Positions 35,401-57,851 of a DNA stretch of 64,000 bases are shown in pieces. The stretch's first letter is position 1. Each line of letters starts with the position of its first letter. This stretch comes from Watersipora subatra (lineage: Eukaryota > Bryozoa > Gymnolaemata > Cheilostomatida > Watersiporidae). Under the pieces are notes generated by a model, which was given only the letters and a program-made list of their open reading frames with translations, searched no databases and had not been told where the DNA came from. The stretch spans positions 11,402,869 to 11,466,868 of the forward strand of contig NC_088711.1 in the NCBI RefSeq assembly GCF_963576615.1. The letters run 5' to 3'. A program made the translations under genes and the position numbers.

Positions 35401-38139
35401 ACATTAAAGGTAAGGCCACACGAGACAAAATTCTCACGAAATCGGCGAAATTTGGACGAAACGATTCGTACGAATTGAAATTTGGACGAATTCGTCCATC
35501 GTTGGTTGCGCACGATGAACGAATCCTGAATTGGACGAAAGGTCTGAAATTCCTACGACTCGTTGTTTGATTGGTCGGTTGAAAAGGTTAGTTGAATGTT
35601 GAAGGCCGTTTTCTTTTGCGCATGTTTGGTCAGATCTAAAAAAGAAAACGATTTGCGAGTTTCTAGCCCGCAGTTCCTAACTCGGATTGAAAACTGTGTA
35701 CTGTGTTGGCGATTATATGTAATCAGTAGCACCATGGACGTAATGGATTTATTTAATAGAAATATAACTGTTTTGTAGCTAGACTAATATTTGCTGAAAA
35801 GTCAGGTTCCAATATGTATTTAATAGAAATATAACTGCTTTGTAGCTAGGCTAATAATTGCTGAAAAGTCAGGTTTAAATTTGTATTGTAATTAGAAGAA
35901 AAAGTAAAACGGTTTTGTGGACAAGCCAAAACCTGCTGTAGTCATACAAAAGAACCGTTTTGCAATGTAGTACATACGTAATAGTTCGTAATAATATTAT
36001 CAATGTACAAGCTCTATTCAAAAGTATACTAAAACCATTTACAACAACAGCCTACTACAACTACTCAGTGCAACTAGTATTAGCAGTTTTGTAGTTGCAT
36101 AGAAACGACCTTATTAACGCGCAGTTATATTGTAGGCGCCGAAATTAATTTACGTGTACATTCCGCAACCGATTTTAGGAATTAGGAATTGCGACTAGAA
36201 ACTCACAAATCGTTATCTTTTTTAGATCTGACCCGCATGTTTGTACTGAAGCAAATGATTGAAACGGAATCGGCTTCAATTTATCACCGCGTTATGATTG
36301 GCTAGTTGAAAGTTAGTTTCGTACGAATCCGTGGTGGGGAAACTCAGTGTGGCAGGTCAGAAATTTCGTACGAATGGAATTTCCCAGATTAGTTGAAATT
36401 ACACGATACGTGTGGCCCGGCCTTAAGACAATAAGTACACATTCAATGATGACTTCTATGCTGAATGATTGCAAAATCAAAAGATCTGCTTAGAACTATA
36501 AATGATCAGAAATGTTGGTTGTTAGTAGCAAGCGCTTGAAATGTTGGACAGTACCTGACTTTCTGGAATGTTCTTCTCTATGTTTATCTATAAAATAAAA
36601 GCATTAGCATTGAGTCTATAGAGCACACTATGAGCTAAGGATGACGTTTAACATGCCATTTGTAACATAGCGTGGTTGAGTACAAACATGGCACTACATT
36701 GCGCACTCATCAAATCTACGAGTAGTCCGCACTCTGATCTTAGAAGCTATTAATTAGCAGCAATTCGTATGAATAGCGGCTACACAGCTGAGAGCGGATA
36801 ACTCTGCAATGAAATGCGTAATGCACTACTTTATGACTTTTATCACTCTGAAGCAATCTTAGCTAGATAAGGCTGAGTACAGATCTATGCGGGCCTCATC
36901 ACACTTGAGCGAATCTTTCACTAATAAATCACTCGGGTGAATAAAATTAAAAATGTTTCAATTCATTGAGAGTAAGCAGTCTTATTCGTTCGCAAGAATG
37001 CTCAGCCATAATTCATTATGAGCTCTCTTTACCGCCAACACCCAAAACAACGCCGCTTTTTAAAATGGATTTTTAACAAGCTCACAATAAGTATTGGCAA
37101 GTGTGAGCAGACGGCCGAACAACTTTTACTGATGAGCAGCGAAACAATCGCATACTTATTCACTAAGTTTCCATGATGCGGTTAATCAGTGAGTTTGCGT
37201 CAATCCGTAAGTCAGAAACGGCAAAAATCCACAAATCAAGCGAGTTTTTTTTATCGCAAATCTTTATCGAATGTTTCATGCTTGCGAATGATGGAAACGG
37301 CATATGTGTAATGGTGCGCAAGAAAATGCGACGCATGCTTTCTATTTTAAACATTTTGCAAACTTCAGTTTTTCCTATTGCGATTTGACGATGCTAGAGT
37401 GCGCAGCCATGACCCCTGGCGTAGAATGTCACGTAAGCTATTCAATTTTTAACATTTTCTAACCTTCCGTTGTTCCTTTATCGAAAGTGTGTTGCTAAGC
37501 GAGACAGGAGTGCGCAGCCATGACCTCTGGCGTAGAATTCCTTATCTTTTTTAACAAAGTGCCCGCATTAATCCGTAATAAGTGAATGTTCATTGAAACA
37601 CTTATTGCATGGTAACTCAACGTGGGCACAACTCCAAACCCATATTATCCGCACAATGGAAGCATAGTGCATCTTACAACTTTTGACAGCTCTCATCGCT
37701 GATGCAAAAACCAATTAAATGCTACGGTTCATTACATCAATTGGTTTCTTCTCACAACATGACTGATGAGTTGCTACTCGAAAGTTCAATTTTATATTAG
37801 TAGTCAATATTATATTCTTTAAGACTGGTCTAACTGAGTTAACTGAGTCTGTCTCTCAATTTTGTAATCCGCTTTAGAGCAGGTCAGACTGACAAGCTCA
37901 CTGCTGTTTCAATGCAAATGGTACTCTCAAACATCACTTCAGGCAGTGGGAGGATACCAACCATGATCCTTGGGGACATTGCTGGAGGGTTCCTCATTAA
38001 GTACTTTGGTGAGCTCAGGGTTGGCTTTCGGGTCTGTCGTGTTGGCTGCTTGCATTTTCATTATATCCGATTCCTCTTTGGCTTTGATCTCATCGTCTGT
38101 AGGTCTTTGTACATTGGCCACCGCACCACTGGCCTTGTT
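26059..38139 (-). CDS. BCL9: BCL9/legless ortholog, about 8 coding exons
   Basis: BCL9/Legless bridges beta-catenin (HD2) and the Pygopus PHD finger (HD1) in Wnt-driven transcription. HD1 is in the exon at 34.2-34.4 kb (VFVFSTPLANMAA, then NSIISYHI); HD2 is in the exon at 32.0-33.0 kb (LTPEQRQNRENGMASL...KIHEMLM). Both match the family order and spacing. A KSKKRKS cluster near the end of the HD2 exon could be a nuclear signal. The rest is Pro/Gly/Met-rich, ending GTSPYMMGGM. Joined exons 37962-38061, 36555-36587, 34181-34386, 31966-32982, 31650-31841, 28307-29306, 26622-26843 and 26059-26414 give one open frame of 1041 residues; vertebrate and fly proteins have about 1400-1500. The six exons from HD1 on are secure; the first two are proposals. 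No paralog is visible in the window. Confidence 0.93.
26622..26843 (-). CDS. BCL9: BCL9 penultimate exon
   Basis: 74 codons in phase 1 on both sides. It reads AHNHAGLPQYSGMTMHP and continues Pro/Met-rich to PPNI at donor CATAG|GTATGT. Confidence 0.9.
27183..27281. ncRNA. Two adjacent hairpins in a BCL9 intron
   Basis: Hairpin 1 (27183-27230) pairs CGATAAATAAA with TTTATTTATCG and an inner CGATCT/AGATCG. Hairpin 2 (27234-27281) has 21-base arms, TCATCCAGTGGCATCAGCAAC against GTTGTTGATGCAACTGGATGA, with one mismatch, one G:U and a 6-base loop. Size and pairing resemble small-RNA precursors, but foldback transposon debris could look the same and no transcript is known. Confidence 0.35.
27381..27500 (+). 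mobile_element. tRNA-derived SINE copy
   Basis: Box A-like TGGCTCAGTAG at 27381 and box B-like GAGTTTGATTCC at 27438, followed by CGTGTAAGGCAATCTTTTTCCTAAC. The same tail recurs on the minus strand at about 42610-42640, so this is a dispersed family and not a tRNA gene. Confidence 0.6.
27548..27890. repeat. 16-bp minisatellite, about 21 copies
   Basis: Unit TACAACATACACCTCC, with TATAACATACACCTCC and TATAAAATACACCTCC variants grouped in blocks, lies in a BCL9 intron. No coding potential. Confidence 0.96.
28307..29306 (-). CDS. BCL9: BCL9 large C-terminal exon
   Basis: 333 codons plus one base. It starts GHPASGSASHKPPPSYS after acceptor ACTTTCAG. It contains NLKITSSTLANLAKGVEQ and NMVEGGPF, the least repetitive part and so probably a conserved block, plus a PQPGQQPAQQPG run and PPPPPQRLPQ near the end. 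Donor CAAG|GTGGGG, phase 1. Confidence 0.9.
29307..31649. other. BCL9 intron with microsatellite and duplication
   Basis: Intron between two BCL9 exons. It holds the ATGT microsatellite and flanking palindromes at 30.4-30.6 kb and a tandem duplication of a 28-bp unit with GTGTTCAATCAGATAGCCCC at about 30748-30803. No other exon was recognised. Confidence 0.6.
30456..30620. repeat. Palindromic ATGTATGC cluster and (ATGT)n microsatellite
   Basis: Alternating CTATGTATGTATGC/TATACATCATACAT segments form inverted repeats at 30456-30545. They run into about 19 copies of ATGT up to 30617. Confidence 0.95.
31650..31841 (-). CDS. BCL9: BCL9 exon, Pro/Gly/Met-rich
   Basis: 64 codons between acceptor GTTGTAG and donor CCAA|GTAACT, phase 0 at both ends. 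It starts IPPSPLTATPQGIMPG, comparable in style to the post-HD2 part of BCL9, and ends GPPEPFQ. Longer minus-strand open frames in other registers here are shadows. Confidence 0.85.
31966..32982 (-). CDS. BCL9: BCL9 exon with HD2 (beta-catenin-binding)
   Basis: 339 codons, phase 0 at both ends. After an N-terminal Ser/Pro-rich part, the HD2 helix LTPEQRQNRENGMASL...MLMD aligns with BCL9 'LSQEQLEHRERSLQTLRDIQRMLF'. A collagen-like run of GP/PMGPGG units follows, then a KSKKRKS cluster and SPKYQ at donor CAG|GTTGGC. The Gly/Pro/Met run is coded by short GGTCCTCC-type repeats (about 32100-32540). Confidence 0.95.
33210..33990. repeat. 42-bp minisatellite, about 18 copies, in a BCL9 intron
   Basis: Unit begins GTGAACAAATATAGACATTTG and ends GGAGTAAGTCCTTTAAA. 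The length is a multiple of three, so several frames stay open on both strands (up to 305 codons minus), but they only repeat a 14-residue unit and lie between the HD1 and HD2 exons. Confidence 0.97.
34181..34386 (-). CDS. BCL9: BCL9 exon with HD1 (Pygopus-binding)
   Basis: The acceptor CTTATTCGTCAG opens in phase 1 with GDERKAEFNKNG. The HD1 core VFVFSTPLANMAASAV and NSIISYHIEEPSTKRF match BCL9 'VYVFST-x-x-ANKAAEAV' and the following 'I-x-x-[FY]-H' block. It ends FIQ at donor CAG|GTGAAT, phase 0. Confidence 0.95.
34387..36554. other. BCL9 intron upstream of HD1
   Basis: Contains a tandem pair of GATAGCGTAGCGACACACCC (34486-34531) and the 1-kb foldback element at 35.4-36.4 kb. No exon seen. 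Confidence 0.55.
35404..36426. mobile_element. 1.0-kb foldback element with TTAA ends
   Basis: The left end TTAAAGGTAAGGCCACACG is mirrored at the right (CGTGTGGCCCGGCCTTAA). Inner segments also pair: GGTCAGATCTAAAAAAG at 35629 with TTTTTTAGATCTGACC near 36215, then the GATTTGCGAGTTTCTAG region. Near 35755-35875 a 66-bp segment (AATAGAAATATAACTG...) is tandemly doubled. A 60-codon frame inside shows no transposase motif. Confidence 0.78.
36555..36587 (-). CDS. BCL9: BCL9 33-nt micro-exon (proposed)
   Basis: A good acceptor (TTTTATTTTATAG) and donor (AGTCAG|GTACTG) bracket 33 bases that read KHREEHSRKS in the phase required by the HD1 exon, giving the polar run KHREEHSRKSGDERKAEF. Other phases put stops into the join. 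No direct homology supports it because this part of BCL9 is not conserved. Confidence 0.55.
36588..37961. other. Spacer or intron with 110-bp near-duplication
   Basis: GAGTGCGCAGCCATGACCCCTGGCG-type sequence occurs twice (about 37397 and 37508) with similar flanks (TTTTTAACATTTTCTAACC), a small tandem duplication. No exon was recognised. Confidence 0.5.
37962..38139 (-). CDS. Proposed first coding exon of BCL9 (or terminal exon of another gene)
   Basis: The acceptor CCTTGTAG opens a frame with acidic, protein-like content (DDEIKAKEESDIMKMQ, NPELTKVLNEEPSSNV). ATG codons lie at 38061-38059 and 38055-38053. Splicing at CATG|GTTGGT (a weak donor) leaves phase 1, which joins the 33-nt exon at 36.6 kb and keeps the frame to the BCL9 HD1 exon. 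Without that splice the frame ends at TGA (37941-37939, last residues GWYPPTA), which would make it a terminal exon of an upstream minus-strand gene, possibly the CECR2-like one. Both readings remain open. Confidence 0.45.
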
Positions 38140-41041
38140 CTACAAGGGTCATACGGTTACATCGGTTTGCTTAGCAAAAAATAACCACAAAGCATGTAAA
38201 ACCGCTATAGATCGCTAGAGACGGGAGACCCGTTTACCCCTCTGTCTAACGCACTGTTGTCAAGCATTCTAAGCCTGACGCGAATCATGAAATTGCGCCT
38301 AATGTTTGCTATTTGGCTTGCGAATCAATAAGTGTACACAAAGATGAATGGTGAGCTGTGTTACACTTCAAAGAGACGTCACTAAACCATTCTAGAACAA
38401 ATGAAGAACCAAATCGGCCTGAGCTATGCAGCTTGTGATACATGTCAAACTAGCCTGCCACTAATTTCTGGAGACGGGCACAATTCCTGTTGTTTCAATG
38501 AACGCTCACGAGGGCTGGGTATGAAGGGGTGGTGTACCAACTAACAGATAGATCCATGGCCATGCCGCTGGCAGGAACAGTCATATATAGTGTGGGTGAC
38601 TACTAAATTTTAGAATGGCGTAGCACTGTTCTTATTAGGCATTGTGAATCAGTGTGCCTTAGCTTGAGTTCTACTACAACTGTGTCACAAGGCGATTTTT
38701 AATTTTTTTCGCTACTAAAAATCCAGTCTTCTGAGCATGATTAAAATATGAAGTCGCCTGTGATCGTTGACAAACTTTTATACAGTCTAAAAGAAACATC
38801 GGCAATACCTTCTTTTTCTTACATGAGCGACTCTCTAGTCGTACATTCATTTTGGCGTGCGGCAAATGGCTGCCGTGCTACAGGTTCAAACCAAAAAAGT
38901 TTTCTTTACACATGACATGCTCAGCGGTATCCGTCCCTGAGCCTTTCATGGAACAACGGTATGTACGGTCAAACCTCAAACTATGATCATCTCTACATAC
39001 AATTTTTTTGGAAACTGCAGTTCTCCTTCCATAGTTTAGTTCCAAATTGCTTGAACAATATTAAACAACGCTTCACACCTTCCCTTCTTAGATTTAAGAT
39101 CACAGATCTCGAGAAGACTAGTGTGAGTGATGAAAGCAGCAGTCAATGCTCTTCTTAGAATTATAAGAATAATAGAAAGACACGATCAAACAATTTCAGA
39201 TCAATTCTTTAAAGAATTTTCGAAGCTATCGAGAGGTCATCGCGTGGAAGCAAACGAGGAAAGGAAAGTCACAAAAAGTGAAAGTGGAGAGGCTAGCTAG
39301 AGATTTACATGCAAAATTATGAAATATAAGAACAGAAATATATATGGATCAGTTTAGAATTCACGGGTTTTATTTAGACGGGCTCTGAATCTCAATGACG
39401 ACATTTACCTAAACCCTGTCCTTCTACATTCCAAGCAGCGTTATGCCTCAATTTTCTAGCCTTCAGCATAAAAGTAATATCATAATAAACATTTCTAATG
39501 ATTGACTCTTAATTAATTACTAATTAAATTTAGCTTCACCTACTCTAAATGCTACACTGTTACAATACTACATGTATATGTAGCGACCTGAAGTCACTTC
39601 AGGTCGCAACATATAGCATTACAAAGCCAAAGACCTAATGATAAGTACTTATCATTAAGTCTTTGGTTCTGGAATTAATCAATGAAACACAATGTATTTT
39701 CATAACAATATTTGCTCCAAAATACGACAGCTTTGACTTACAAAGCAAATATCAAAATGGATTAACTTAGTGCCGATGTTTGTCTGTATGTACTGTTTGC
39801 TACCAAAAGGGAATTCGGTACAGAATGACTACCAGTTAATGCTAGTATTATGTTGACCGATGTTGGCAAACCTAATTGTTTGGCAATAAATATCAAGATT
39901 TGAGTAAAAACAAGCAAGCTATCAGACTAGTTGGCAAATCAAACCATTTCCATGACAATTACAGTCTCACGATGGCAGTCAACAATCCCAATTTAAATAA
40001 TCATCTCGTAAGAATTCAATGATTCTCCAGGTGACAGAGGGCACTGCAGCTTTCAATAGCAGCTATTGAAACTATGGTCATGGCTACGGAGTATAAAAAG
40101 CTTACACAGTGTAAACTTACGGTAGTACTTCAAGCGAGAAGAGTGGATGACAGAGTTTGATTATTTTCTATGATAATAAAGCAACATGATTATTTTGGAC
40201 CAACGAAAATCTACCATATCGATTATGATTATGAATGAAAATGGCATGAGTCCTTTAATAAAACTGTCTTATGGCCTAGCAAGAAGCAGCCTAAGCAGCA
40301 GGTCTGCACGTTTAGAGTACAGCCAGATGGCTGGCCAGCTCCAGCAATCTTTCGAGATTTTTTATTTTAAAATGGTGTGCTCAGGATCTGGTACAAATCT
40401 GGTTCACTCCTTCTCCACCACCCCTCCCCTCCCGAACAGGGTATGTAACGACGGCGAATATCAGCGCAGAGACAGTCAACAACAGTATGATAAGTTGTAG
40501 AAAAGACAGCTATCGCTAGCCATGACGAGACCTGTGCCATGCACACTCACACAGGTGTATCAATCCTAGCATTGTTATGACTCTTCAGCAGTTCTAAGTA
40601 AACAGTCGGAATCCCGCACAAAGACGTGAAAGTTTCAAACTAAATAAGCGAGTGAGGCTCTTTGAGAAGGTGTTGACTCATGGTCTGGTCGTCGAGATGA
40701 ACGTGTCACTAGCAATGTAACTTGTCATCCCAATTGTCTACAAAGCAGAGCCAATCCTACGACCTATAGCGAGTGCTATTCGGTGCTACAATCGCATGCT
40801 GAGAAACGGTGACATCAGCGGTGGGCCTGCTGTGTGTGTAGAAAAGATGAGACTGTGCGGTTAGGAATATTTGAACATGAACTGTTTTTAAAACCAACAG
40901 AAACATTGTTGCAACCCCAAATCAATATTCTCCCCGTAAGTTATTCGCTATCAAGTCAACTCTCACTGGAATACAAGAGAAGTACGGGTCAAGGCTGAGC
41001 CAAAAACTATTGAACTTCTTAATAGTTAGGAGAGCAGCAGG
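38140..41041. other. No secure gene; small palindromes
   Basis: Lies between the BCL9 5' side and the CECR2-like exons. It should hold BCL9 5' sequence and any further CECR2 exons, but none could be proved. Perfect palindromes occur at 39.58-39.67 kb. Confidence 0.4.
39583..39666. repeat. Two consecutive near-perfect palindromes
   Basis: First: GCGACCTGAAG-TCA-CTTCAGGTCGC (39583-39607). Second: CCAAAGACCTAATGATAAGT paired with ACTTATCATTAAGTCTTTGG (39627-39666), one mismatch and no loop. They are 19 bases apart. Confidence 0.92.
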
Positions 41042-41514
41042 GTAAGGTTGGTTCACACTATATCGCTGTATCTCGGCGTTGATGCCACAATAGTTGGGTG
41101 ATCATCGATGATAACAATGTTCCCACTATCACAAACCATCTTGTGATTTTCGTTTGCTTCAGCAAATACTCCGTGACGTAGTGTTCTCATTTTTCTTTTA
41201 AAGTTTTTGCAAAAAAACCTCTTTATTTTTGCGCACTCAAATCAAATACTAATCTTGTAGTAACTATCATAAATAAAAATAAAGACATCACGCTATCCGC
41301 CACTGCGAATTACTATCACCAAAAAGGTTCGCATTGTACAGGCTGTCGTCGATGCTCAGCAAAATATCGGGAAAGTTTGCAAAGCTACAAACTTTCCTAA
41401 CGTATTGTTACGTCAATGCTATCGGTCCCTGACGCGCATAGTCGACGATGAGTGTCGAAAGGACAATGCCGACAGTGGGCAATATAGGGTGAACCAGGCT
41501 TTAAGGACAAGTAG
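41042..41514. mobile_element. MITE, about 470 bp
   Basis: The left end TAAGGTTGGTTCACACTATAT is mirrored by ATATAGGGTGAACCAGGCTTTAA at the right. TTAA stands at the right edge. No coding sequence. The end pattern (GG-TTCAC near a TTAA) resembles other elements in the window. Confidence 0.7.
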
Positions 41515-42087
41515 GAAAGGTTGAAAATATGGAGCCGCGTAGATATTAGCTGGGCTTCATGATTGATGATAAATACACGCGAAAGTTACGTATTGCATTT
41601 TAGACATGAGTGTGTTTCTGTTTGCTAAACGTATCTCTAAAGAGTAAATAAGAGATACCCATATTATTCCGAGTGTAAAATAATCAGGTGAATAAGTCAT
41701 CACTGATCAACTTGATTTTGAAAAATATAATTGGAATTAAGAGCAAACTTGAATTCCTACATATAACCTTCAAGCGTATAGTAAGAGATCATCATCATTC
41801 ATACCCACAAACTTACTTATGAGTTTACCTCCACACAGCGGAAAGTGGCCTGTATCCGTATATCAGTAGAAAATATTGATAAAGACCTGAGGCTACATTT
41901 TTAAATGATGCATCACAGAGGCATCTTGTTTCATACACCACTAGAGAAACTAACATATTTCTTCTGCACTTGAGAGGGGTTTGAGATTGGAATACGATCG
42001 ACACATACGTACAAATACGTACCCCTAAGCGTAGAAAACCAAAACGCACGCCATATTTTCTCATTAGAATGAGTAACTCTAAAATCA

Positions 42088-43590
42088 CTGCTTTGCGACT
42101 GCTACTGATAAAACTAATAAATACAGTTCACTGGTAATTGGGAATCTGTAAAACTGATACTAATCATTTCTAGCTTGGACTTGACTACAAGAAAATTTCC
42201 AGAGTATTTTTGGACCTGGAAGAGACCCTCTCTACTTAATTTATATTTGCTATTACTCTTTGTAACTTGAATGATTCATTTAAACTTGCAGGCATTGATC
42301 ATTGAAAATAAAGTTATTATCTATTTTTAACAATCTTCCACCTAATATCCATTCTCGTAGCAGAAAAAGACATTTTAAACACTATTTGTCAAACTATTTA
42401 TTCGATTTTAATGGCCCTTAACTGTTGCCCTTTTTTTTTGTTTTTTTTGTTTTACTAATGTTGTATGGCCTAATTTGAAAAACATTTCTATTTTTGTAAT
42501 AAAATTATTGCCAATAAAGTACTACCTACATCTATCTATTTATGCTTTAAATGATTTCGATAAGCTTTGCTATAATAAGAGCCGTGTCCGTCTATTTGTA
42601 GCTGTGCTCAAAGCGTTAGAAAAAAAGATTGCACCACACGGGAATCGAACCCAGGTACTTGGATCACTCAACCAATTTTCCACATCTATGAATAACTATG
42701 CACATAGTTATCACACATGACAAGCCCTCACAGCACACGGTGCTATCAGCGTATTAGTCAGCACTTTATATACTTATAAATTCGACCATAAGTAGGCAGT
42801 TCAGTTTAATTTTAGTCATGTATAACACTCTGAACACTGTTACCAACTAAACTATAGTAGCAAAGAGCGCATAAGGGGTTTTAAACATTGCTCTGCTAAA
42901 TTGTTAACAAGTGTTCTCCACCATAGCACCGCCTCTTACAGCATTATTTAATCATTGTTGAAAATTTATTCTAAAGTCTGCCATTGAAACAGGAGCGATG
43001 AAGACCATCTCTTGGTCCGTTTTACCGAGCGCATATTTAGAAATGAATCGTATTGTCAATAAATTATTAGGTGAGTAGTTAAACCCATTTGAATGTCACA
43101 CACACTTTTTGGCAGACTTTATAATAAACTTGACAAAAAGACGATGCTATGGCTCAACTGGCGTTATGGTATGGAATCGGGAATTGTCTCCATCTTATCA
43201 TAAGCGATGTGATGATCTATTACTATGGAGAGTCTCTGCCAAGCTTTGTATCCAATCTTTCTATTGAAATTAAAAAAGTTGTAACGAATGCTCACACCTT
43301 AGTCCGCTACTTTCTAGCCAGCGGCAGAACAGCCAACCAATTTGGCTGCACCAGAAAGGATCATATATTACTTCCTGTCAACTTTAAAGCTAATAAATCA
43401 AGCAACTGTCAGCGATTCACTATACAGGTTCTAAGTTACTTCCAAAGCAGCCGCGTGCTACCAAGATCCCCTCCACTCGCGGCCCTTTCGAGAAATATTC
43501 AAAGGAAACCAAATACTGCAGCAATCAAGCAATCCATCCATACGAAGGTATATTTACTCTTACGTCTATATAAAGGATGAACATTCTCAC
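42088..43590. other. No further secure exon
   Basis: Region downstream of CECR2-like exon 7, containing the SINE at 42.6 kb. A plus-strand 143-codon frame at 43149-43580 has no recognisable domain and is not called. Confidence 0.4.
42605..42685 (-). mobile_element. tRNA-derived SINE copy
   Basis: On the minus strand, TGGTTGAGTGA (box A-like) and GGTTCGATTCC (perfect box B) are followed by CGTGTGGTGCAATCTTTTTTTCTAAC, nearly the same tail as at 27450. The A-B distance is only about 25 bases, too short for a tRNA gene. Confidence 0.6.
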
Positions 43591-43652
43591 CTCTCCCTAC
43601 GTCTGCATCTTTCAAAAAGATGTTCCAGCCTCCAGAGTTTATACAGAAAACG
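43591..43652 (-). CDS. CECR2: CECR2-like exon 7 (62 nt, probable)
   Basis: The acceptor TATTACTGTCTAG and donor GAGAG|GTGAGA bracket RFLYKLWRLEHLFERCRRRE in the phase set by exon 6. A basic helical stretch after 'FLPSI' is expected in CECR2. It ends in phase 2; the next exon was not identified with confidence. Confidence 0.65.
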
Positions 43653-46600
43653 CTAGACAGTAATAGAGTCTGCCAACTATGCAGGACAAGATATGTTAAA
43701 TGGATAAATGGATTAACGCCTACGTGCACCCAACCGTAGCAACAGACCGATTCGAGGTCTACCATTCTATGCTTACACCAGTGACTAAGTAACAAAAGCG
43801 TGTTTTGACAAAACGCCAAGCAGTCCATCCATTGGCCAGTTAATGGCACCCCTTAATAGTTAATATCGAGATATCTGCGAAGGTTCTTGCATGAAGGTAG
43901 TCTACGTGAAATCTTTGATTATCCATAATGCCGGTCTGGTAACTATCTCAAACTGTTGTTCTGAAGGGGGAGGGGTGCTAGTACTGCCATCGTGCCATAA
44001 CCGAGGGCGATGCTATCGAGAACCCTAAAACTGATAATAAGAAGCGTGGTCATAGGGTTGTCTTACCTCTAAGCCAAGTCTTATACTCGGTAGAAAAAGT
44101 TGATCATTCAGGTAAGTATACAACTCTTTCTCCTGCTCGTTCTTAGACTTCTCGAGTTCCCTTATAAGCGACTGCCACTCATCCAAAGTGATGGCCACGC
44201 ACTGCCAGTCAGCCGCACCTTCCTTCGACTGCGGCGAGCTTTTCGATCTGTACAGTCGTAGGTCTAAATAGAAACATTCACATTGAAAGACACTTGCATT
44301 TACTGAATCTGCCACACTATCCTAGAGTAGATTGAATAGGTCGACCTCTCGTCGGCTAGATTACTCCTGTATCTGAATAGACAACTAACAGAATTCTGTT
44401 TTTGCTATAATTAGCAGAATGAGCATTTGCACTTAAAGCAATGACAATCAAACATGGATTGGGTGGAGCGGGACATGTAGTTATGTAAAACTATTTGCCA
44501 GAATCCAGCCCAGTTGCACCTGGCCCTGTCCAGATTCCGCAGGTGACTGGTCATTCATATAAAAAGTGACAGGAGAAAGAAAAATTTTGCATCAAATTGA
44601 TTTTTGAACGCACGTGTATGCTAGTCGTGTCAAAGGGTCAAGGCCTGTTACGGAGGTACGAAAATACAGCATATCTGCAGCACCAGTTTACTAAGGCTGG
44701 CAGCATGTCAACTGCAGCAGTTCACAACAACCATTAGTCACTGTCATTACCTGTCTTACCATCTTAACCTTGTGATTTATGTACCAGCAGCCAGCAACTA
44801 AAAAACCTTCCCAGTTTATAAATGCATACTTCTACACTTGAGTAGTTCAGAGCAATGCAAGCCCTGCGTAGGGTAGACCCAACAGTATCTTATTAGCTTC
44901 AGACCTACGCAGACACATTCGCAAAAAATATATGCCTAGCAACAGGCCGACCTGCCTTAAACGTCCTTAAAGATGACCTTACACAAAATCTTGGTAGATT
45001 TTATTAGAAAGCATCGATATTTTCCTATCACTTGCTTTTGATGTTTTGAGGTGATCATACAGCAAGAATGTTTCAAGATTAAAATTGACAAAACTTGATC
45101 GCTCAGAAGAAAAATACTAGTGAAATGACGTCATTATTTGCTATCGTTGCTATAGTTGATATCGACTATAATTGCGTTCAAGTTGCGACGTTACGAGTCT
45201 CTATTCTTTCAGTCTCTTTGCAACTATAGACGTCATAATCACACTTTCATTTGATCTGAGCATTTTAACTGCGATCAAGTTTTGTCGATTTTAATCTTAA
45301 AACATTCTGGCAGTCAGGCCTCAAACCTTAAAAACAACCACAAATGTTAGAAAAATATCGATACTTTTTGATAAATCTAATAAAAGTTTGTGCAAGTCCA
45401 TCCGTTAAGCTGGTCTACAAGGAGATATGTCAATATAAAGTCTCCACAATAAAGCCTGGTTTCCATATGACAGCGCAATGATTGTGCCCGGCCCTGTGAT
45501 CGTGCCCAATGCATTGCTTGGGCTGTGATGCAGTGTTTCCATAGCGCGAGTAGGCGCCATGCTTGCATTGGACAGGGTGGTTAATTTCCTTACTTTTTCG
45601 TACGGGAGACAGATTTCTTCGGAAAACAGCCCTCTGTTTGAATTGTGGGATAGGTTGAAAAGGTCGAGCGGTATATTGTGGGATACATCATCGCGCGCAC
45701 CCATCGCAAGGATCCATTCTGTTGGATCCTTGCGATCAGCGTACGCACATCGCGCGATCGTCGTGCGTTGACGTTTCCACATCACAGCCGGCCTACGCAC
45801 GACGTCGTGCGTCTTGTTGCGCGCCTTGCGCTGTCATATGGAAACCAGGCTTAAATGCTACAACTTAGCAGTGATCATCACTTGATCTGTAGATTCCACA
45901 TTGCGAGAGATGTGGCCAGTTTGTGTCAAATGTTCAATACATGGCTAAAGTCAATGACACTGAACTAGGCAACATTCACAAAAGGCAAGTGCTCTCCAGG
46001 TCCTTTCATAAAAGTCTCAGATAGGTTGAAAAATTTGTACCTCCCTCTTGTGGACTTGAGGCACCAGTACTTGTATCGTATCTAGGAAGATGTAGTCTGC
46101 CTAACTAGCACTTACACAGAGGCAGTAATGTTTTACGAGAAAATCGAAACGCCAGTTGACATGAGAGTTACCTATGAATACCAGTGATATGTAATGTACG
46201 ATTTAAACAAATACAGTTTATTAGGGTGCACTCAATGGTAATAAGGAATTAATCATTAACGAGCTAGCGTATTTGCGAAAGAGAATAGCTATGTGGTAAC
46301 ACTGAAGACAGATTTACACAAGGACATCGCTTTGTAAGACTGAGGAATGTTGTAATATAAGATGATTTGTTTACCTTCGGTATTAGCTAATAAATTTCAC
46401 CATATGGAACAGCCAATGCTAATAAAGACTCGTGCAAGGCATATCTGTATCTCAATTAGAAATTAATTATTAGCCGAGAATTGTGTAATAGCTAACAGAT
46501 AATCACTGACAAAAGAAATTCCAACAGTTTTTCACTGTAATAGCTTCTTCATATTTTGAGCTGCGCCCCAACCAATTATGGATTTGCCTCCCTTAACGTG

Positions 46601-49600
46601 ATGGAATGTTAACACGCTGATGACAAGGCACTAGTATAGTTGAGTACACAATATATATAATCGCGGAAAATTGGGTTCCTTCATATTTTAACACAACTAA
46701 AATAGGAAATTACGCACGTGCTGTTTTCTTGATATGTACATGAGTTTGACAAAAATCAAGTCAAAATTCAACTAATATTAAACTTTGCTGACATTTGAGC
46801 GACCGCATCAGCAAGATACTATTGTTATATTGATAAACAACAGCATGCAATACTTTTAGCAATGTACATATGAGAATTATGTGGTATGAAAATGTATCTC
46901 ACAATAATGTTAGTGATATGGTTAGTTTTTATGATGAATGTTAGGCAATCTTAAACAAGGGTCTATAAAAGTCTTAGACAGCAAAAAATGATGGGAGGGG
47001 GGATAATGCGTTACTCGAAGCATGTAACACTTTAGTTAATCAAGTGGATTTTAAGCTTGCCCAATGATTATAATTTGCTTCATACGCAAACTTCTTTGAT
47101 TAAAGTGAAGTTGTCTGCCCGTAATCATATTCATAAAATGCGCCTAATTGAATGTTGCCACCGCTTTTTTAACCTAACACAGATGCATGGCTGACAATTT
47201 GCACCGGTGTAGTTGATATGACGCAATTACTTTTTCTATCACATGATTTTTTATAATCAATTTGAAACGCCAAAGCCACCGATAAAATGACATTTCATAC
47301 ATGAAAACATGTAACATCGGGAAACAATTGCAAACAGCTATTAGCCAAAAGACTGCAACAAATAGCTTCAACTTGGCGCGGATGGATCGCTTATGACCGC
47401 CAGAAATGCATTCAGTGAGAGTCACGATTTGCTGTTCAAACTGTAGCATCAATGTTAAGCAATTTGAGATAGTAAAACTGCAGACAAAATCACCTGACTG
47501 ATGACGTCATAATACAAATGTAGTGAGTATAAGCCATTGGGGAAGAAAGATATGATAAACCAAAGCCAGGACCTCGTACCTTATCCTTGTTCAACTAGCT
47601 ATTATTCTACAAACACTATGACTACATACAGATCCAGAATCGGTTGCTTCTGTCATACTCGCTCCATCCCAAGCCGAGCGCATGGCTATATATTGCTGTT
47701 ACGTTTAGCAGATAAGGAGAGAGATTAAGATAAATCCAATACATAATTTATCACATTAATGTTACAGGGATGAGCGCTTCTCTCACCTGTTTAAATAGAT
47801 CAATACATAGATGCTATAGATGATGCGTTGCTATTCATTACTATCGGCGCAGGATCAGTAAGAGGAGTCCAGTAATCCCTGACACTCACTAGCAGCAGTC
47901 ATATGTTGAGTCAAACACTCTCAAATGTTGAAACAAGAAGAAAGATATTATCTTTTCCTCTACCGACTATCGTTACCAGTTAGTTGCTAGCTAGTATCAC
48001 ACTAGAGATAGCTACAAAATACTCTGTCCACCTTCTCTCCGATGTCAACCCAGCCTAATGAGGCACTCACTGTTCAAATCGCTCCATCCCTATTGTTAAG
48101 GCCAGGTCTTTGCAAATCTAATGGGTGGCATCACAAAAGACGTATTGTCCCTGGACAATGACAGGCTCTGAGGCAGTCTTAAAGCTTTCCATAGAAATGC
48201 AAACAAATGCTCCTTTGAATCATTTGACAGTTTAAAATAAGTTTATAAAATTTGAGCGCAGTTAAAACAAACAAAGGCCATTCAGCGATGCTGTTAAGCC
48301 TTAGGTAGATAGTATTTTAACTGTATTAATAAACAGTGTGCATACGCCAATGCTACGGTGTTACGCTGTTGTTACAACAAAGCTAATGCTCCATGCTAAT
48401 GCCACCGTAATGGCAATTGTATCAACATTCCTGGCATTTACAAAAAACTCTTCTCCCACAAAAATAACTTGGTTCAACCAGCCCTTCTGAGAAAAGTGAA
48501 GCAAGTCCGCCTTCTATATCCTGGACAATTTGACCATCTCAAACAAGGTAGACTAACGACAATAATCCTATCAAACTCTTCAAATAAACGTTCTGAAGTT
48601 TATCTTGGACTTTACCTAGAAAATTGAAAGTCAATGACGTGTTTGTGTATTTTTGCTTAAAACGTAAGGTTTAAGTGGTATGCAGCAAACATACTAAACA
48701 TCAAGTACGGTCTTGCTTAAAATCATGTAAAACTAGAAGTGTACTTGAAGTTGACGACTGGAAAAACCACAACTCTGGCAACAAAAGATGTGTACAACAA
48801 TTTATTACACAGCTGGCAATTAGAAGAGGCTGTTTTGCAACTCTGACTATTCAAACGATGCTCAAAAGGTTACGTTTCCATAAACTTGTAAACTATGTAA
48901 GGATACAGCGTACTCACACTACAAAATATAATGTGAGACAGCTGACAGCACTGACCACCAAAGAAGTTCTGTAAATCGTCACTCCACCATCACTAACCTG
49001 CTGATCAACCAAGCATAACCACCAATCTCAGGAAATAAAGAGGCTCTTACACTTAAAGCAACTGCACAATCGCGATATGAAAGACCGACGAAAAGACACA
49101 ACCTTGACTCAATGTTGTTGGCAAGTGTCGAACAGTAAGCAGGCGATGAACAATGAAATGATGACAAGACGGCGATATGACAGTGAATGAAAGCCAAGTA
49201 CACAACGACTGCGTGTTACAATAGAATATGCATAGGCAGAGAGAGTGAGAGAAAGATAAGAAAGACAAGGCTTGCTAAGGGTCGTGACACGATTGGGCAC
49301 TATCTCGCTCTCTACTGAAAGTTAATTGACGGATCATCAGCAGTGATTAGCAGCTTGTTGAGTAAGCAAGGCATGTCAGTGATAAGAGTCAAACAGAGGC
49401 AAGCAACTGCATCCCCCCATACCTACACATGCCATCCGTATCATCACGAGCTACACTGTATCAATCATCATCATCATTACTGCGTATCGAATGGTTGCTA
49501 TGCACGCTCTGCGAGAATTTCATGATGCTCTACCAGCTAGCCGGTCAGAGTTCAGTCATGAAACCTTAGCAACATTTACCAAACTAAAAACAGCAAATTC

Positions 49601-52600
49601 ATCTGTCTTAGTAGGCAAAACAACATGTAAACAGGTGTCTAGACCGGCTGATGTTTGGTACCAGTGTGTTTAGCACACACATGCGTTTGGATCGCTGAGG
49701 CCTCATTGGTCAATTGGACAATTGGGTATTTCTTGAACTCAAAAATGCCAAACATGATGTCCACCATCAAATTATAGTTATTCCTCAAGCTTCCAATAAA
49801 TATATTGTTACAATTAGTCTCTAAAAAGGGTGATATCTTATAGAGCGTAGTGGAGAAAAGACCAGAATGAATGACAACGTGCAAAAAGACTAAAGCATCA
49901 CTACGGTGCTCTGCGACAAACATCTGTGAGCTAGACGCTGAAATGTCTAGCTTAAAGCACTTTGTACCATTATTGCGAGGTTATTCCCATTCTACACAAA
50001 TATGAGATGAAGGCAGCATCTTTAATGGCTGAACGACCAATCATGAAGACACTATTAACCCGCTAATATGACTGGCTAATCGAGCATTACTTAATAAGCT
50101 GTTTTGTTACCAAACAATAGCATTTAACATTATCACATTATTTACATATGCAGGAAGAGACAATTCCACAAATTGTTTTAAAAACCTTTTATTTAGCAGG
50201 GGCATTAAAAAGCACACCAATATTCAGTCCTAATAGTACAGATAGAAAAAAACTCACCAGAGCAACCAAAGAATGAAATGCTAGGAGACAGAAGGATAGC
50301 CAGTACGACCTCTGTGAAACGTTTCACCATATAAGACCAAGGTAACACTAGCCCAGCCTTCTAATGAGCCTTCCTGACCGCAGCCAAAAGTCATAAATAA
50401 CTGCGCTAACCATTAGCCTGACAGCTCCGATGCGATGGCACACATAAACCATTTAAAAATGCATCAGCAAGCTATAGCGGTACATTTCCTGAGTAATCTT
50501 TGCAGGAGCAAGAATTTGTAGCGGAAATTGTCACTCTGGTGCAATGCCAAGCTTCTTCAAAATTTGGACAACTCCGGTCAAGATAGACGGTTACATAAAC
50601 TACGACTGTATAAGACGCGCCAAACACTCTACCTTTTATTGGTGCTAAAACCACAATGAAAACAAGACAAAATAACTCCTAACAGCCAAAGAAGAGATTT
50701 ATCTGCATATGTTTTTTGGACCTATAAAATTGCAGCTATGATGCCTGCCAAAAGCATATTACTAATTGAAATAACTAAATCATCCAGGTATTTTAATGAT
50801 TTCTGTCAACACTAAAACAACGTTAAGAGCTTTGCATTAAACGGGTATAAAATATGATAAATAACAGATTTTAAACATAAATCCTTTGCATACGGCTAAG
50901 TTGCATGTCATGAAATTAACTTTTAAAAGTTGGTAAATACACCACACACTCAGGCTCAAGGTCTATGACTAAACAAGAACAGATGCTTCTGCAGAAAAGT
51001 ACATTTGCTTATGTGAACGCATTGCATAAAAACTAATATGATTTGAAGTATTGACTCCCTGATTCATTTTAAGATATCTGGTAGCTTACCCAGACTACCC
51101 GCTATTGCTTCTCGAGTGTGTACGAGGAGCCTAATCTAAATTAACTAGCTAGCAGGTGGCTGAAGCCTACAGTAATATTCAAGAAATTTTAACAGACTTT
51201 TAACTGTCGTGTTAAATTTTTACTTGTATTTGTTATGCCGAGTTGAGACCTCTGGAGTACTTAGGGGCCACACGGCAGTGGGTAGGCTGTTTTCTAACTA
51301 GTTACTAAGCCAACTATAGCAAAATTCAGTCATTTTAAAAACTGCAATTGAATCATCTCACCAACCATATGTCTGCAGTCGGGCAATTTATTTGTCGGTA
51401 AACTGACATTGCCAGGTTTTTTTTTATATTACTGTTCTGTTTCTATGTAGCTTGACTACTAGGCTTGATGGTTGTACACTTCTCTGCAGACGATAATGGC
51501 ACCACACTCTGATTACTGTGGTAACAGTAGAGGAACAATTAGTTGAAAATCACTTTCTTTCCTCTAAAAATCGTAATAGGCTCTCAGCTGCAGCCCACCT
51601 AATCAACAAGTGTGTGCAGTACCCTTAAAAGGCTCTAAGTGCTTTGATCATGCATTCAGTAAGGAAATTAAATTAATCAATATACATTTAAATAAACTGT
51701 TCATGCGTTTCCCCAGCTTTAAAAACCTAAAATCATACGAATCACACAATTTGCATAAGTATTATGACACTTGCGTAATGTATTATTTGGTATATATTAT
51801 TTATTTTATAGGTTACTATGGCAGCACCACACTTTTTCTAATGATGCACATCAAGTAGATAGCAAAATATTGGATGCAGTTTTCATAGCATCCAAACTGT
51901 ATCTAGCTTTCGCTATGTCTCTTTCCTCCACCTGGTCAATTACAACAGTATCGCAAGGAATACATTTTTTGCGCTAGCAGATCATGAGTTGTACTACAAT
52001 GAAATGGATATCAGCTGCAAATTCAGCTCTTCTATCCTTTTGCAAAGCATTTATAAGCATAAGTTAACAGAGACCTTGCTGAAATGGTTATGCCTCATTT
52101 GCTGCACTTGGTTTTTGAAGCTGGAGAGGGGAAGACAACACTTTATAGTCTAAATAAACAAAATTTTAAAAACGTGTGGCATAAGTTCGTTACACGCAAA
52201 CGTAAACACATGGTTCACATCTGTTGGCTGTAAGAATATCAAAAGCATTAGCAATGTCAGTTCAAATAGAAACTTCCTTAAATGCATAAGATGCACATTT
52301 GACTTTCTCTCCCAGACTTTGCCAGCCAATACTCAAGGATACTAGACAGTGCATATAAACTTGGTGTTAATCTCAGATCTTACCTGCACAACCAACAAGC
52401 TACTGTGTCAATACTCACCATGGAAATACCAGTAGGTTCTGTTATCCGAGTCTTTACCGACATTTATCTCCTTCTACAAACAAATAAAACATTCTAGCAG
52501 TTTCACTAAAACCTGAGAACCTTCCTTTTCAACAATTCTAGTAAAGGAGAATGCGATGCAAAAGAGAGAAAAGAGAGAAAGTCTTAGAGGTAGAAGATGT

Positions 52601-55600
52601 GACTGAGAAGATCAGATGATCGCATCAGAACAGAGAAGAAACCACTGCACAGCCTCAGACTAGATGATGAATAATTGAACATACATGCCCGACATGTTGA
52701 ACATACATGCCCGACATGTTGACCATACATGTCTGACATGTTGACCATACATGCCCGACATCTTGAACATACATGCCCGACATGTTGACCATACATGTCT
52801 GACATGTTGACCATACATGCCCAACATCTTGAACATACATGCCCGACATGTTGACCATACATGCCCGACATGTTGAACATACATGCCCGACATGTTGACC
52901 ATACATGCCCGACATGTTGAACATACATGCCCGACATGTTGACCATACATGCCCGACATGTTGAACATACATGCCCGACATGTTGAACATACAATGCAAG
53001 TAAAATGGAATTAATCAGCTAGAATGAATCAGCTGTCAGTGAACACTCAAATGGCATTATATATCCAAAGGGGTCTGCAATACTATGAGTTACACTATCA
53101 TGAAACAAAACTTTAGCGTGGATACACAACTCCAGCTGAGGTTTATGGTGCGATGTACGCTCATGATTCTGAAGGTAAACAAACACGTTGGTCTATGTTG
53201 TTAAAGATGATTAGTTAAAATGGTTGATTACAGTGAGCATAATCTCAATTAAATTTCAACATTTTAGATTCACTTTCAAACTATGACAACAGGGATACAC
53301 ACAACATTTATATATTGAACAAAAATATTCTCATGTTTAACATATATGCAAAAACCACTAGTGTAAATCGGAATTGTTCATGAAACGTTTGGGATAATTC
53401 TTTAGGTATGTAAATATGTTGAAATCCAAAATTTATCGATAGCTTGATTCATGTCATAAAATCTTTATTATTATACCTAATTGATTGTCATCGATAATGT
53501 GTAACACTTTTTCCTCATTAACAATGTTTTCCTTGAACACATACAAAGCGATGCAAATATCTATATAGATGTTACAGCAATCAGCAATCACAAAAGTGAT
53601 CGCTGTATTAAATAACAATAATAACAACAGTAACGAAAAATCGAGCAAGTATGCCATGGCCTCCACACGACTGAGGTCAATTTTCACTGATCAATACATT
53701 TGTCAACAACGATTATAGACACTGCAAATGTCTACACTACATGTCGGTTGTGCGTTTTGTCAGTATGTCCAGCCAGGCCTTAAAGATGAACTCGCACAAA
53801 TTCTTCGCAGATTTTATCAGAAAGTATCGGAATGTTTTATTAATTGCGATTATTTTTGATGTTTAAGATGATTTGACTGCCAGGATGTTTCAAGATTAAA
53901 ATCGACAAAACTTGATCGCAATTAAAAAGATCGAAAGCAAAACGCGTGCGAAAATACGTCATTAGTTGCGATCGTCGTTAGAGTTGATATTGACTATTGC
54001 ATTCAAGTTGCAACATTCTGCGTCACTGTTCTGTCTAACTCTTCGCAACTATAGACATAATCACACCTGATCTGGGTGTTTTAACTGCGATCAAGTTTTG
54101 TCGATTTCAATCTTAAAACAACCTTGAGGTCAGATCACCTCAAACATAAAAAACAAACGCAAATGATAGAAAAATGCCGAGACTTTCCAATAAAATCTTT
54201 TAAAAATTTGCGCGAATTCATCTTTAAGGAAACAACAGGAATTTTGGTAGTTATCTCTTAGTTTAAGCGTTAATTATCACCTCTGTTTGTTCATCTGACC
54301 ATAATATCAACAACTACTAATTTGAGCACAAATGTAGAGCAGACAACTCTTGGTAAGAAAAAACCAGTTCGGCTAAAGTGACCTACAAAATGAAACTTTG
54401 TCACCACCATCCCAGGCCATAAGGTTTGTTGAAACTTTATATCAAATCCAACAAAATTTTTCAGTTGCCATAGAAGTTTGTGTAAAAATTTAAATGCATT
54501 CATCAGTGTTAACTTTCATACTAGCGTAAGAGGCGATACTTAGCATTACGCATAAAATCTGTAATCTAATAATATAATACATAGATTTGTACTCCAATGC
54601 ATAGATTTGTCAGTTGCGTCTAACGATTTTCCACAGGTGCCACTCACTACTGACAACTGTTGGCCACAGAGTAAATCCAAATAAAAGGTATGGTGTCTGA
54701 CAGTCTACTAAGCACTTACATCTTCCAGACGATCAGCAGCGGAATTGAACTCTTCTGAAAGAAATTCATTCACCTCGGCTTTCTTCTCTTTCGTCTCGTC
54801 TGCAAGCCACTTGAGAAGTTTGAGCTGCAAGCAACAAGCAGCTAAAACATCAAAGAGTGGCGACACGCTACTGACTGTACAACCATCGTTGTACAGTACG
54901 CTACAACAACCAGGACTCTCATGTGAACATCAACCTATCAGAATTCACAAAAATACAATTTGTGTTGAATTTTTGCTAATTATTTTCATCTCATTGACTC
55001 GCAATAACTTTTTTTTATTAATTTTGTGTTTTATCAGTTAAACGTAGGTCTGACCATCGTGCGCAGGATGTTTGAGACTCAATCGAGCCAGCGCTGGAGC
55101 CTCAGACCAGCTATAGGAAACATCAAACAAATGTCTTATAATGTTCAAGAAGTTGAAAAGCAGCCTACACAGAAGTAACAACTAATAAGCTGATACAATT
55201 GGGAAGGTTGGACAGACAACTCCAAGTTGTGTGCAACTCTCTACAGTATGTCTTTGATTTCACAAGGCTATCATGTCGGCTGTTACAAACAGGAAAAAGA
55301 AACAAATCTGTCATGCAGTTTCCAGTTGAAAGAATTAATGCATATTAAATAGCCAACAGAATTACTATATCCAAACTAAATAATTGCCTACTTGGACTAA
55401 AAGAATGATAATGAACATTTTTACAATAAAAGAAATGGGTCACCAGTGATGATATGCAGGATGTAGAACAGTAAATAAGATTGACAGAGGAAATCACGTA
55501 GGAGCTTATTAAGCGATAACAATCCCTTCCAACCAACTCCTGAACCTACCATCAGGTCTCCATACTAACTGCCGCGCCATCTTTCCTCAAATCATACTAT

Positions 55601-57851
55601 CATTCGCTAATCTATAAGGTTGTTTGGAGATTATTGAAGTTATCAACTATATTTAGTTCTTCATATTTTCTCAATCTTCTTGTATTTTGGTTTGAAAAGA
55701 CAAAAAGGTGATGATTTACTTGTAACAATTTTGCATTTTATGTTATACAACAGAACATAAAAATCTAGTGGCAAAAATGTGGATGTTTAATGCTGAGCTG
55801 ATACATTAAATTTTAAAACCATAAGACTTTTTAGTAACTGCTCAAACATTATCATCGAAGCTATTGTGAACAGGAAATTCCTAAAAGTAGCGGTATTTTA
55901 CAGTTGACACGTATGCCATAGCTTTAGATATAGCCGATGTACATAGATGCGTTTTCTAACATTCAGCTCTAATCACAATTTCTGTTCTCGTTTTTTTTGT
56001 CTGTTGCAACAAAATATAATAGATTTGTGTTTTACTGCTGTCAATGCTACCAATGCACACGTATATTACTACATGTTAGTTATTACATGTATAGCTAGGT
56101 ATGCTTGGTTAGAAACGCAGCTACTCCGTTCCAATGAAACAAGCTTCATTGAAAGAGTGACTTGGCTATTGTAACTTACCACACTAGCGATTGCCTTCTC
56201 TTAAATGACTGTCTAGAAGGATCACTCAGTTGACGGGCGAAAACAGTTCAAAAATATCGATGACCAAGTAGTTAAACTTTGGTACTCACCCTGTCAGCTG
56301 CGGAAATGGTTTTGTACTCGCTGTTGCTCAAAGGGTTCCACGAGGCGCTGCGAGAGACGAGCAGCTCTGACAGATGTGTCTCGAATGAGGTGTGTCTGCA
56401 GCAGAATCACGGCAATAATTTTACTAGAAATTGTTAAAGATAAACTTGCACAAAATTTTAGTAGATTTTATCAGAAAATATCGGTTTTTGTCTATAATTT
56501 GTAATTGTTTTTGATGTTTGAGGTGATTTGACTGCCAGGATGTTTCAAAATTAAAAATCGACAAAACTTGATCGCGGTTTAAAAACTCGGATCATATGAA
56601 AGTGCGATTATGACGTCGATAGTTGCAAAGAAACTGACAGAGTAGAGACGCTTAATGGTACAACTTGATACAATTTCTTCTGAGCCTTTTAGCCAGGATC
56701 AAATTTGCTCGATTTTCATTTTGAAGCATCCTGGCAGTCCGATCACCTCAAACATAAAAAGCAATTACAAATAATAGAAAAATACCGATACATTCTGATA
56801 AAATCTATTACTTTAATATCCTCTTATGAAATAAAGGGGGTCAAAAAAGGGGAGTAAGGAAACGGTGCCAGACCTGATGGATGTGTTCTGGAGGTGATGC
56901 CGCAAAATTCTTGCAAATATGTCAGATAAAAGTAAATCCTGTGGAAGAACTAAGCTCTTCTCTAATATCTGCAAATAGCAAAAGGGAAAGAGAGTCCACA
57001 CGCTGCCAGCCTTTCTATTGTTGACCGGTATGTCAGGGCAACTCCCACAATTTAAAAGGATAAATGTCGAGAGTGTCTTTATTGCTGTTTACATGATAGC
57101 TGCAGCTATTGACGTGGAAGCTTGTATATTGTGCTAAATAATAAATCAATGACTATAAGAATTGAATGACAGATTTATGCACAATACGACTCACTGAATA
57201 GCCTAGAGATCGATAAGCGAGGCAAAAACGCCACTGACTGTGCTCTATGTAGCTTTAACTCCGCTACTGCTGCCTGTCAAACAGCGGCATCACACGAATC
57301 ATGGATTCATCAACTGAATGATGTGAACTAATATGATTATCGCTGCCTTCCCGGCAGCCCAACAACAGTTTAGTAGCAATCAAAACATTATCTCAGTGAT
57401 AAGTCAATTAGAAGAGCTGTGTCGACAAGCTAGACGAATAAAAAGTCATCCAATAGGTTAGCTTTTATCGGGTGCAAGTAGGAAGTATTCCCAAGCCCGA
57501 TTATTTGACCAGTGAACTATCAGCGACACCAGCGAGGTGGCTGAGCGTATACTAATGAAATCGGTTACTAAAAACAATATCTAATCCTCATCATATTTAA
57601 TATCATATCATTTTCATATTGAAGTTGGAATAGAATGCCAAGTGGATGAAAACTGTCGATGTATATCCTGTCTGGGCAACTGAGCTATGCAGTATTTCAA
57701 ATAGTTTAGCAAAGAAACATGGGAGTTTTCCTTACCTCAGTATCAATAGCAGGAAAGTCAAACTTGTCCTTGTTCAAAGTAAGAAACTGGGCTAGATACG
57801 GCAATTCATACATAGAGCGTATGGCTGTCACCTCCATGCCTCCATCAGCCT
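43591..57851 (-). CDS. CECR2: CECR2-like DDT-domain chromatin gene, N-terminal seven exons
   Basis: Seven minus-strand exons (57736-57851, 56874-56968, 56290-56395, 54720-54824, 52419-52473, 44067-44263, 43591-43652) join with consistent phases to about 240 residues. They follow CECR2 in order: IRSMYELPYLAQF matches 'LRSWWEVPAIAHF'; LEKSLVLPQDLLLSDI and HTSFETHLSELL continue the DDT-type region; RLKLLKWLADE matches '...VEILHRLCDY'; GKDSDNRTYWYFHG matches 'GEDNSGALYWYFYG'; DEWQSL...ELYTYLNDQLFLPSI matches 'EEWRQV...QLYKLLSEDFLPEI'. CECR2 partners ISWI-type ATPases (CERF complex) and binds acetyl-lysine by a bromodomain. No bromodomain exon was found down to 38 kb, so the 3' part is missing, very distant, or absent from this gene. 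Confidence 0.88.
44067..44263 (-). CDS. CECR2: CECR2-like exon 6
   Basis: Lies 8.2 kb beyond exon 5. Encodes DLRLYRSKSSPQSKEGAADW, then DEWQSLIRELEKSK and EKELYTYLNDQLFLPSI. It matches the CECR2 'EEWRQVTESF...RERQLYKLLSEDFLPEI' block. Donor GAG|GTAAGA, phase 0. An in-frame ATG upstream of the acceptor makes a longer open frame but is intronic. Confidence 0.93.
44967..45408. mobile_element. 442-bp TTAA foldback element (family F1, copy 1)
   Basis: TTAAAGATGACCTTACACAA at the left pairs with TTGTGCAAGTCCATCCGTTAA at the right. Inner blocks AAGATTAAAATTGACAAAAC and GTTTTGTCGATTTTAATCTT are also inverted, so nearly the whole element folds on itself. It lies in the CECR2-like intron 5, like its relatives at 53.8 and 56.4 kb in introns 4 and 2. 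Confidence 0.88.
45450..45854. mobile_element. 405-bp MITE with 27-bp perfect inverted repeats
   Basis: AAGCCTGGTTTCCATATGAC (then AGCGCAA) at the left is exactly mirrored at the right (45826-45852). The interior is GC-richer, with CATCGCGCG and CGTGCGTTG motifs. TTAA at the right edge (45851-45854) against TAAA at the left. No coding sequence. Confidence 0.9.
45855..52418. other. CECR2-like intron 5
   Basis: About 6.5 kb of intron. Plus-strand frames at 48675-48974 and elsewhere show no family features. No RNA gene or tandem array was seen. Confidence 0.5.
52419..52473 (-). CDS. CECR2: CECR2-like exon 5 (55 nt)
   Basis: Short exon with the diagnostic GKDSDNRTYWYFH. Two acceptors three bases apart (TGTAG|AAG|GAG) would add or drop one Lys. 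Donor CATG|GTGAGT leaves phase 1, which joins AC of the next exon to give HDLRLYRSK. Confidence 0.93.
52676..52992. repeat. 22-bp minisatellite with internal ACATGT palindrome, about 14 copies
   Basis: Unit GACCATACATGCCCGACATGTT, alternating with GAACATACATGCCCGACATGTT. It lies about 200 bases inside the intron before exon 5 of the CECR2-like gene. 22 is not a multiple of three, so the open frames cycle through registers and do not indicate coding. Confidence 0.97.
53780..54227. mobile_element. 448-bp TTAA foldback element (family F1, copy 2)
   Basis: TTAAAGATGAACTCGCACAA at the left against GCGCGAATTCATCTTTAA at the right, with the same inner inverted blocks as copy 1 (GATTAAAATCGACAAAACTTG and its mirror). 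Lies in the intron between exons 4 and 5. Confidence 0.9.
54720..54824 (-). CDS. CECR2: CECR2-like exon 4
   Basis: 35 codons between acceptor GTTGCTTGCAG and donor GAT|GTAAGT: LKLLKWLADETKEKKAEVNE then FLSEEFNSAADRLED. This is the 'R-V-E-I-L-H-x-L-C-D' helix of CECR2/RSF1-type proteins. Confidence 0.92.
56290..56395 (-). CDS. CECR2: CECR2-like exon 3
   Basis: The acceptor TGCTGCAG supplies the third base of Arg, then HTSFETHLSELLVSRSASWN and PLSNSEYKTISAADR. It ends at donor AGG|GTGAGT, phase 0. Confidence 0.9.
56434..56807. mobile_element. TTAA foldback element (family F1, copy 3, right end lost)
   Basis: It starts TTAAAGATAAACTTGCACAA and follows copies 1 and 2 through GATTTGACTGCCAGGATGTT and the mirrored half, but the last 30-40 bases are missing. 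It fills almost the whole intron between exons 2 and 3 of the CECR2-like gene. Confidence 0.85.
56874..56968 (-). CDS. CECR2: CECR2-like exon 2
   Basis: The acceptor TTGCTATTTGCAG opens ILEKSLVLPQDLLLSDIF, then ARILRHHLQNTSI, like CECR2 'ELEAALHRDDVEFISDLIACLLQG'. It ends in phase 2 at a weak donor, ATCAG|GTCTGG. The foldback element at 56434-56807 ends only about 65 bases past this donor. Confidence 0.88.
57736..57851 (-). CDS. CECR2: CECR2-like exon 1
   Basis: Encodes MEVTAIRSMYELPYL and FDFPAIDTE, the opening of the DDT-type region. Two starts are possible: the ATG at 57837, or splicing at CATAG|AGGCTG (57851) from an upstream exon, which adds EADGG and would align one for one with human 'EEGGAAGLGELRSWWEV'. 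Donor GAG|GTAAGG, phase 0. Confidence 0.85.

Follow-up and report, generated by a model that had tools for sequence, protein, structure and literature searches.

Six exons of a CECR2-type DDT region

The DNA analysed here, which we call the window, is a stretch of 64,000 nucleotides on contig C4 (C4:11402869-11466868), and it was compared with the genome it comes from (783.7 Mb scanned, 239 contigs). Its minus strand carries six exons whose AG/GT ends and phases agree, and which when joined give a reading of 225 residues, 220 of them from the ATG. An initial annotation had proposed a chain of seven phase-agreeing exons, of which these six were confirmed; the seventh, ending at 43591, found no support, the frame at 43502-43852 having no Pfam match and no place among the 25 best matches listed for that interval between the window and a second copy of the region on contig C1. 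The six exons are given here with their C1 counterparts:

57736..57837, minus strand: exon 1, with the start ATG and the opening part of the CECR2-type DDT region; AG/GT ends, end phase 0, frame open from 57852, start Met common with the C1 copy
56874..56968, minus strand: exon 2, DDT region; end phase 2; C1 counterpart low-scoring (20.0 bits), yet collinear and of equal phase
56290..56395, minus strand: exon 3, DDT/WHIM-like region; end phase 0; C1 counterpart 21.9 bits
54720..54824, minus strand: exon 4, WHIM-like region; end phase 0
52419..52473, minus strand: exon 5, YWYF block; end phase 1; 83-87% identity with C1
44067..44263, minus strand: exon 6, DEWQSL...FLPSI block; end phase 0; 48% identity with C1

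The human CECR2 and RSF1 letters used as queries are approximate. The product of exons 1-6 matched this approximate CECR2 in two blocks, one of 169 aa at 25% identity and another on the W...EW...LY..L...FLP.I motif (E 9e-15 and 2e-4 when compared with that one sequence, and 8e-10 at a database size of 5e7 letters). Profile searches, which the initial annotation had proposed, gave a mixed answer for the window product: Pfam KIAA2026_hel lay above its cut-off (E 1e-7), WHIM1 lay under its own (E 0.063), and the product was absent from the matches to the DDT model PF02791 at E<=1, a model on which the approximate human CECR2 itself reaches 20.2 bits, under the 22-bit cut-off. The DDT part had no match in the PDB up to E 10, and no relatives were found in collections of viral contigs and genome contigs, which are not meant for animals.

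The CECR2-type N-terminal DDT/WHIM-like region claimed for this locus is thus present, on the strength of the CECR2 alignment and of KIAA2026_hel, and so are the YWYF and DEWQSL...FLPSI blocks in CECR2 order, which align with the approximate CECR2 and are kept in the C1 copy. Judged by that copy, which is 44% identical over 212 aa with equal exon phases, the similarity of exons 1-6 is above chance.

A bromodomain-bearing CECR2 elsewhere in the genome

The initial annotation had noted that no bromodomain follows the DDT region, and both approaches used here agree with it. A bromodomain profile run over the whole genome gave 28 matches at E<=0.001 among 43 scored candidates, none of them in the window; on C4 the closest one is 11014681-11014821 on the plus strand, about 388 kb ahead of the window start. 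Likewise, tblastn with the approximate CECR2 gave no bromodomain match in the window. The many tblastn matches to CECR2 at 13-14.6 kb of the window were rejected as tandem repeat. At 12987-14572 about 76 copies of a 21-bp unit stand in tandem, and their open minus-strand reading consists of QEQAR- or KLDKNKS-type repeats.

An ordinary CECR2 exists elsewhere in the genome, since C4:41920001-41960000 (41.93-41.95 Mb) carries on its plus strand CECR2-type exons followed by a bromodomain, with 43.6% tblastn identity to the approximate CECR2 and a Pfam bromodomain at E 1e-19 (41.94 Mb). Given this separate gene, and given that the region in the window seems to continue into exons of BCL9/Legless, the window gene is probably not a shortened CECR2, and the suggestion of a short, DDT-only form is probably mistaken.

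BCL9/Legless exons downstream

The other possibility raised at the outset, that the gene runs on with exons then unseen, appears to be right: exons of BCL9/Legless type extend from 38139 to 26059, in equal order in two genomic copies. These exons, and the gap that separates them from exon 6, are as follows:

38140..44066, minus strand: gap of 5927 bp between exons 6 and 7, either an intron of a fusion gene or a gene boundary; no conservation against the C1 gap above background
37962..38139, minus strand: exon 7, linker exon with NPELTKVLNEEPSS; phase 0 start and phase 1 end in both copies; core identical to C1 at 11/14 residues
34181..34386, minus strand: exon 8, BCL9 HD1 (Pygo-binding type); matches PDB BCL9 chains
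31966..32982, minus strand: exon 9, BCL9 HD2 (beta-catenin-binding type); Pfam PF11502 above cut-off
31650..31841, minus strand: exon 10, C-terminal region; C1 reads through without the exon 9/10 intron
28307..29306, minus strand: exon 11, conserved BCL9 C-terminal block; 38% identity with C1 over residues 2-317 of the open frame
26622..26843, minus strand: exon 12, C-terminal region; reading frame and splice ends only
26059..26414, minus strand: exon 13, the last, with stop TAG; weak low-complexity C1 match, E 1e-5

The HD1 assignment comes from phmmer matches to PDB BCL9 chains (six distinct sequences, E 6e-4 for 3zpv to 6e-3), and that of HD2 from Pfam PF11502, above cut-off in the window and in the C1 copy alike. 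For HD3, the ChiLS-binding helix with a W and an F/Y doublet, three hand-made patterns run over the minus-strand frames of both copies gave no convincing match.

From the ATG at 57837 to the TAG at 26059 the minus strand thus holds 13 exons that stay open and agree in every phase, for a product of 1276 aa. Three donors in the chain are weak (exon 7 gttggt, exon 9 gttggc, exon 11 gtgggg).

Several other features lie in this part of the window. Within intron 8, about 18.6 tandem copies of a 42-bp unit (33208-33988) lie in a minus-strand open frame of 310 aa. Intron 7 contains a dispersed repeat (35363-36490) that in translation is up to 97% alike to C4:41947082-41947520, a copy that sits directly past the CECR2 bromodomain exon. 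At 24657-23851, on the same strand as BCL9 and about 1.4 kb past its stop, are frames with UBA_4 above cut-off (E 1e-4) and a sub-threshold N_BRCA1_IG, which we take to be an ILRUN/C6orf106-like gene.

A second copy on contig C1

Searches with the DDT exons led to a second locus at C1:43173408-43194714, and in the surrounding region (C1:43.15-43.19 Mb) order and strand match those of the window: first come six DDT exons, and after them the linker exon, HD1, HD2 and the C-terminal block. The end phases of exons 1-8 are equal in both copies (0,2,0,0,1,0,1,0), with phase 0 at the end of exon 6 and at the start of exon 7. Identity is 44% over 212 aa between the DDT parts and 43% through HD2 between the joined products, and the start Met is common to both copies. 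The last exon has a weak, low-complexity match at C1:43154196-43154453. The C1 N-terminus falls under every DDT-type Pfam cut-off (DDT E 0.009, 16.5 vs 22 bits; KIAA2026_hel unlisted). An intron of 124 bp (31842-31965) separates exons 9 and 10 in the window; by our reading of the two sequences the C1 copy (C1:43161-43162 kb) lacks it, so it was gained or lost between the paralogs.

In the genome as a whole, the Pfam BCL9 search yielded 8 candidates and 5 matches at E<=10, of which the 2 above cut-off are the window and C1, both (2/2) with DDT exons upstream. Strong matches to the DDT exons were found only at these same loci, weaker ones (E 2.5-3.1) falling at C4:41.94 Mb, which is the CECR2 gene, and at C6:14.37 Mb. 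When genes flanking the C1 and C4 blocks were compared out to 20 kb, the further matches above 38 bits looked like dispersed repeats and were set aside. The best reading of the two loci is that they are a duplicated and diverged pair of DDT-BCL9 fusion genes; since the copies share their ancestry, they count as one line of evidence from one species.

One fused gene or two neighbours

We consider it quite probable that exons 1-6 make up the 5' half of a gene fusion, in which a CECR2-family DDT/WHIM-like module is followed by the linker exon 7 and then by an invertebrate-type BCL9/Legless (exons 8-13), for a protein of about 1276 aa, and we infer that the 13-exon chain is read as one transcript. 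This reading is favoured because all phases agree from ATG to TAG, because the C1 copy preserves order, strand and the phases of exons 1-8 at 43% identity through HD2, including a matching phase at the exon 6/7 junction, and because no Met between M1 and HD1 is conserved between the two products. It is favoured too because the genome has no above-cut-off BCL9 HD2 locus without DDT exons and strong DDT exon matches are confined to the same two loci, because the gap between exons 6 and 7 is of intron size in both copies (5.9 kb in the window and 4.3 kb in C1, where intron 5 measures 8.2 and 12.0 kb), and because in one spliced reading the first 687 residues score above the cut-off for KIAA2026_hel (28.3 bits against 27.8) as well as for BCL9 (26.3 against 25). 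The weak donors, the position of the C1 copy under the DDT-type Pfam cut-offs and the failure of the patterns to find HD3 count against fusion; an additional short BCL9 form made at this locus would not contradict it.

A rather unlikely alternative is that two same-strand neighbours were duplicated together, namely a bromodomain-less CECR2-like gene made of exons 1-6 and an unseen terminal exon, and an ordinary BCL9 that begins in an unseen start exon or in exon 7. No further conserved exon rose above background when the window and C1 gaps were compared, but the comparison has low power: the true exons 2 and 3 themselves score at background level, and a terminal and a start exon could therefore hide in the gap. 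Exon 7 has Mets in each copy, none of them conserved, and the frame about 1.4 kb beyond the BCL9 stop means that short gene spacing occurs here. CpG ratio and counts of polyA signals were uninformative as evidence of a gene boundary. Even so, under the two-gene reading a terminal exon and, unless translation of BCL9 begins in exon 7, a start exon must have gone undetected in both copies (gaps of 5.9 and 4.3 kb), the phase match must be due to chance (1 in 3), and linkage must have been kept in 2/2 copies at 43% identity; the lack of a conserved Met between M1 and HD1 also speaks against it. It is far less probable still that a duplicate of CECR2 has decayed here, losing both bromodomain and function; the lack of a bromodomain nearby would fit, but the exons are open with intact splice ends (all in the window, exons 1-8 in C1), identity in blocks such as YWYF remains at 83-87%, and a separate bromodomain-bearing CECR2 is present in the genome.

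Possible function and relation to known systems

The DDT domain of CECR2 is described as required for SNF2L binding (PMC7948406). For BCL9, PMC5352222 describes HD1 as binding Pygo and HD2 as binding beta-catenin, and reports HD3, which binds ChiLS, in all BCL9 orthologs. According to PMC4765067, which cites Song et al. 2009 (a reference that PMC8656404 gives as well), the ISWI complex NURF promotes Wingless transcription through an interaction with Armadillo.

By analogy with the CECR2 DDT region, the N-terminal module of the fused product would bind an ISWI-type ATPase, and HD1 and HD2 would bind Pygo and beta-catenin, so that the protein would bring ISWI remodelling to TCF/beta-catenin enhancers in cis; the transport of ISWI to beta-catenin is proposed because of the CECR2 DDT-SNF2L contact, the HD1 and HD2 partners and the NURF-Armadillo interaction. 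Perhaps, then, the DDT-BCL9 fusion tethers ISWI remodellers to beta-catenin. As a tentative model, which we regard as possible without leaning towards it, a single chain would combine an ISWI-docking DDT module with the beta-catenin/Pygo adaptor BCL9 and in this animal hard-wire nucleosome sliding to the enhancers of Wnt targets, a link that might stand in for the HD3-ChiLS contact.

The fusion of two genes hints that their halves work jointly. If true here, ISWI remodellers and the Wnt enhanceosome would be linked directly, a connection for which PMC4765067 cites fly work on NURF and Armadillo, and the question would arise whether BCL9 in other species associates with SNF2L/SNF2H-type complexes. 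No paper that joins BCL9 with a DDT domain was found in open-licence full texts, and among the listed open-licence papers naming both CECR2 and BCL9 none concerned such a fusion by title and the start of the abstract; we therefore found no description of the DDT-BCL9 architecture in the literature, and it may stand unremarked in protein database annotation.

KIAA2026 (BRD10) and RSF1 have a related N-terminal helical/WHIM region, as KIAA2026_hel above cut-off on the window product indicates, but this genome has its KIAA2026_hel gene on C2 at 66.29 Mb, and the approximate RSF1 scores below CECR2 against the window product and has no match with C1. BCL9/BCL9L/Legless, the adaptor of the Wnt enhanceosome, shares the succession of HD1 and HD2 and a Pro/Gly/Met-rich C-terminal part with a conserved block, whereas here a CECR2-type DDT module stands ahead of HD1 in both copies and HD3 was not found by pattern. 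CECR2, which acts with SNF2L in the CERF complex, shares the N-terminal DDT/WHIM-like region with its YWYF and EW...LY...FLP.I blocks; the window gene differs from it by the lack of a bromodomain, and the CECR2 that does carry one here is the separate gene at C4:41.93-41.95 Mb.
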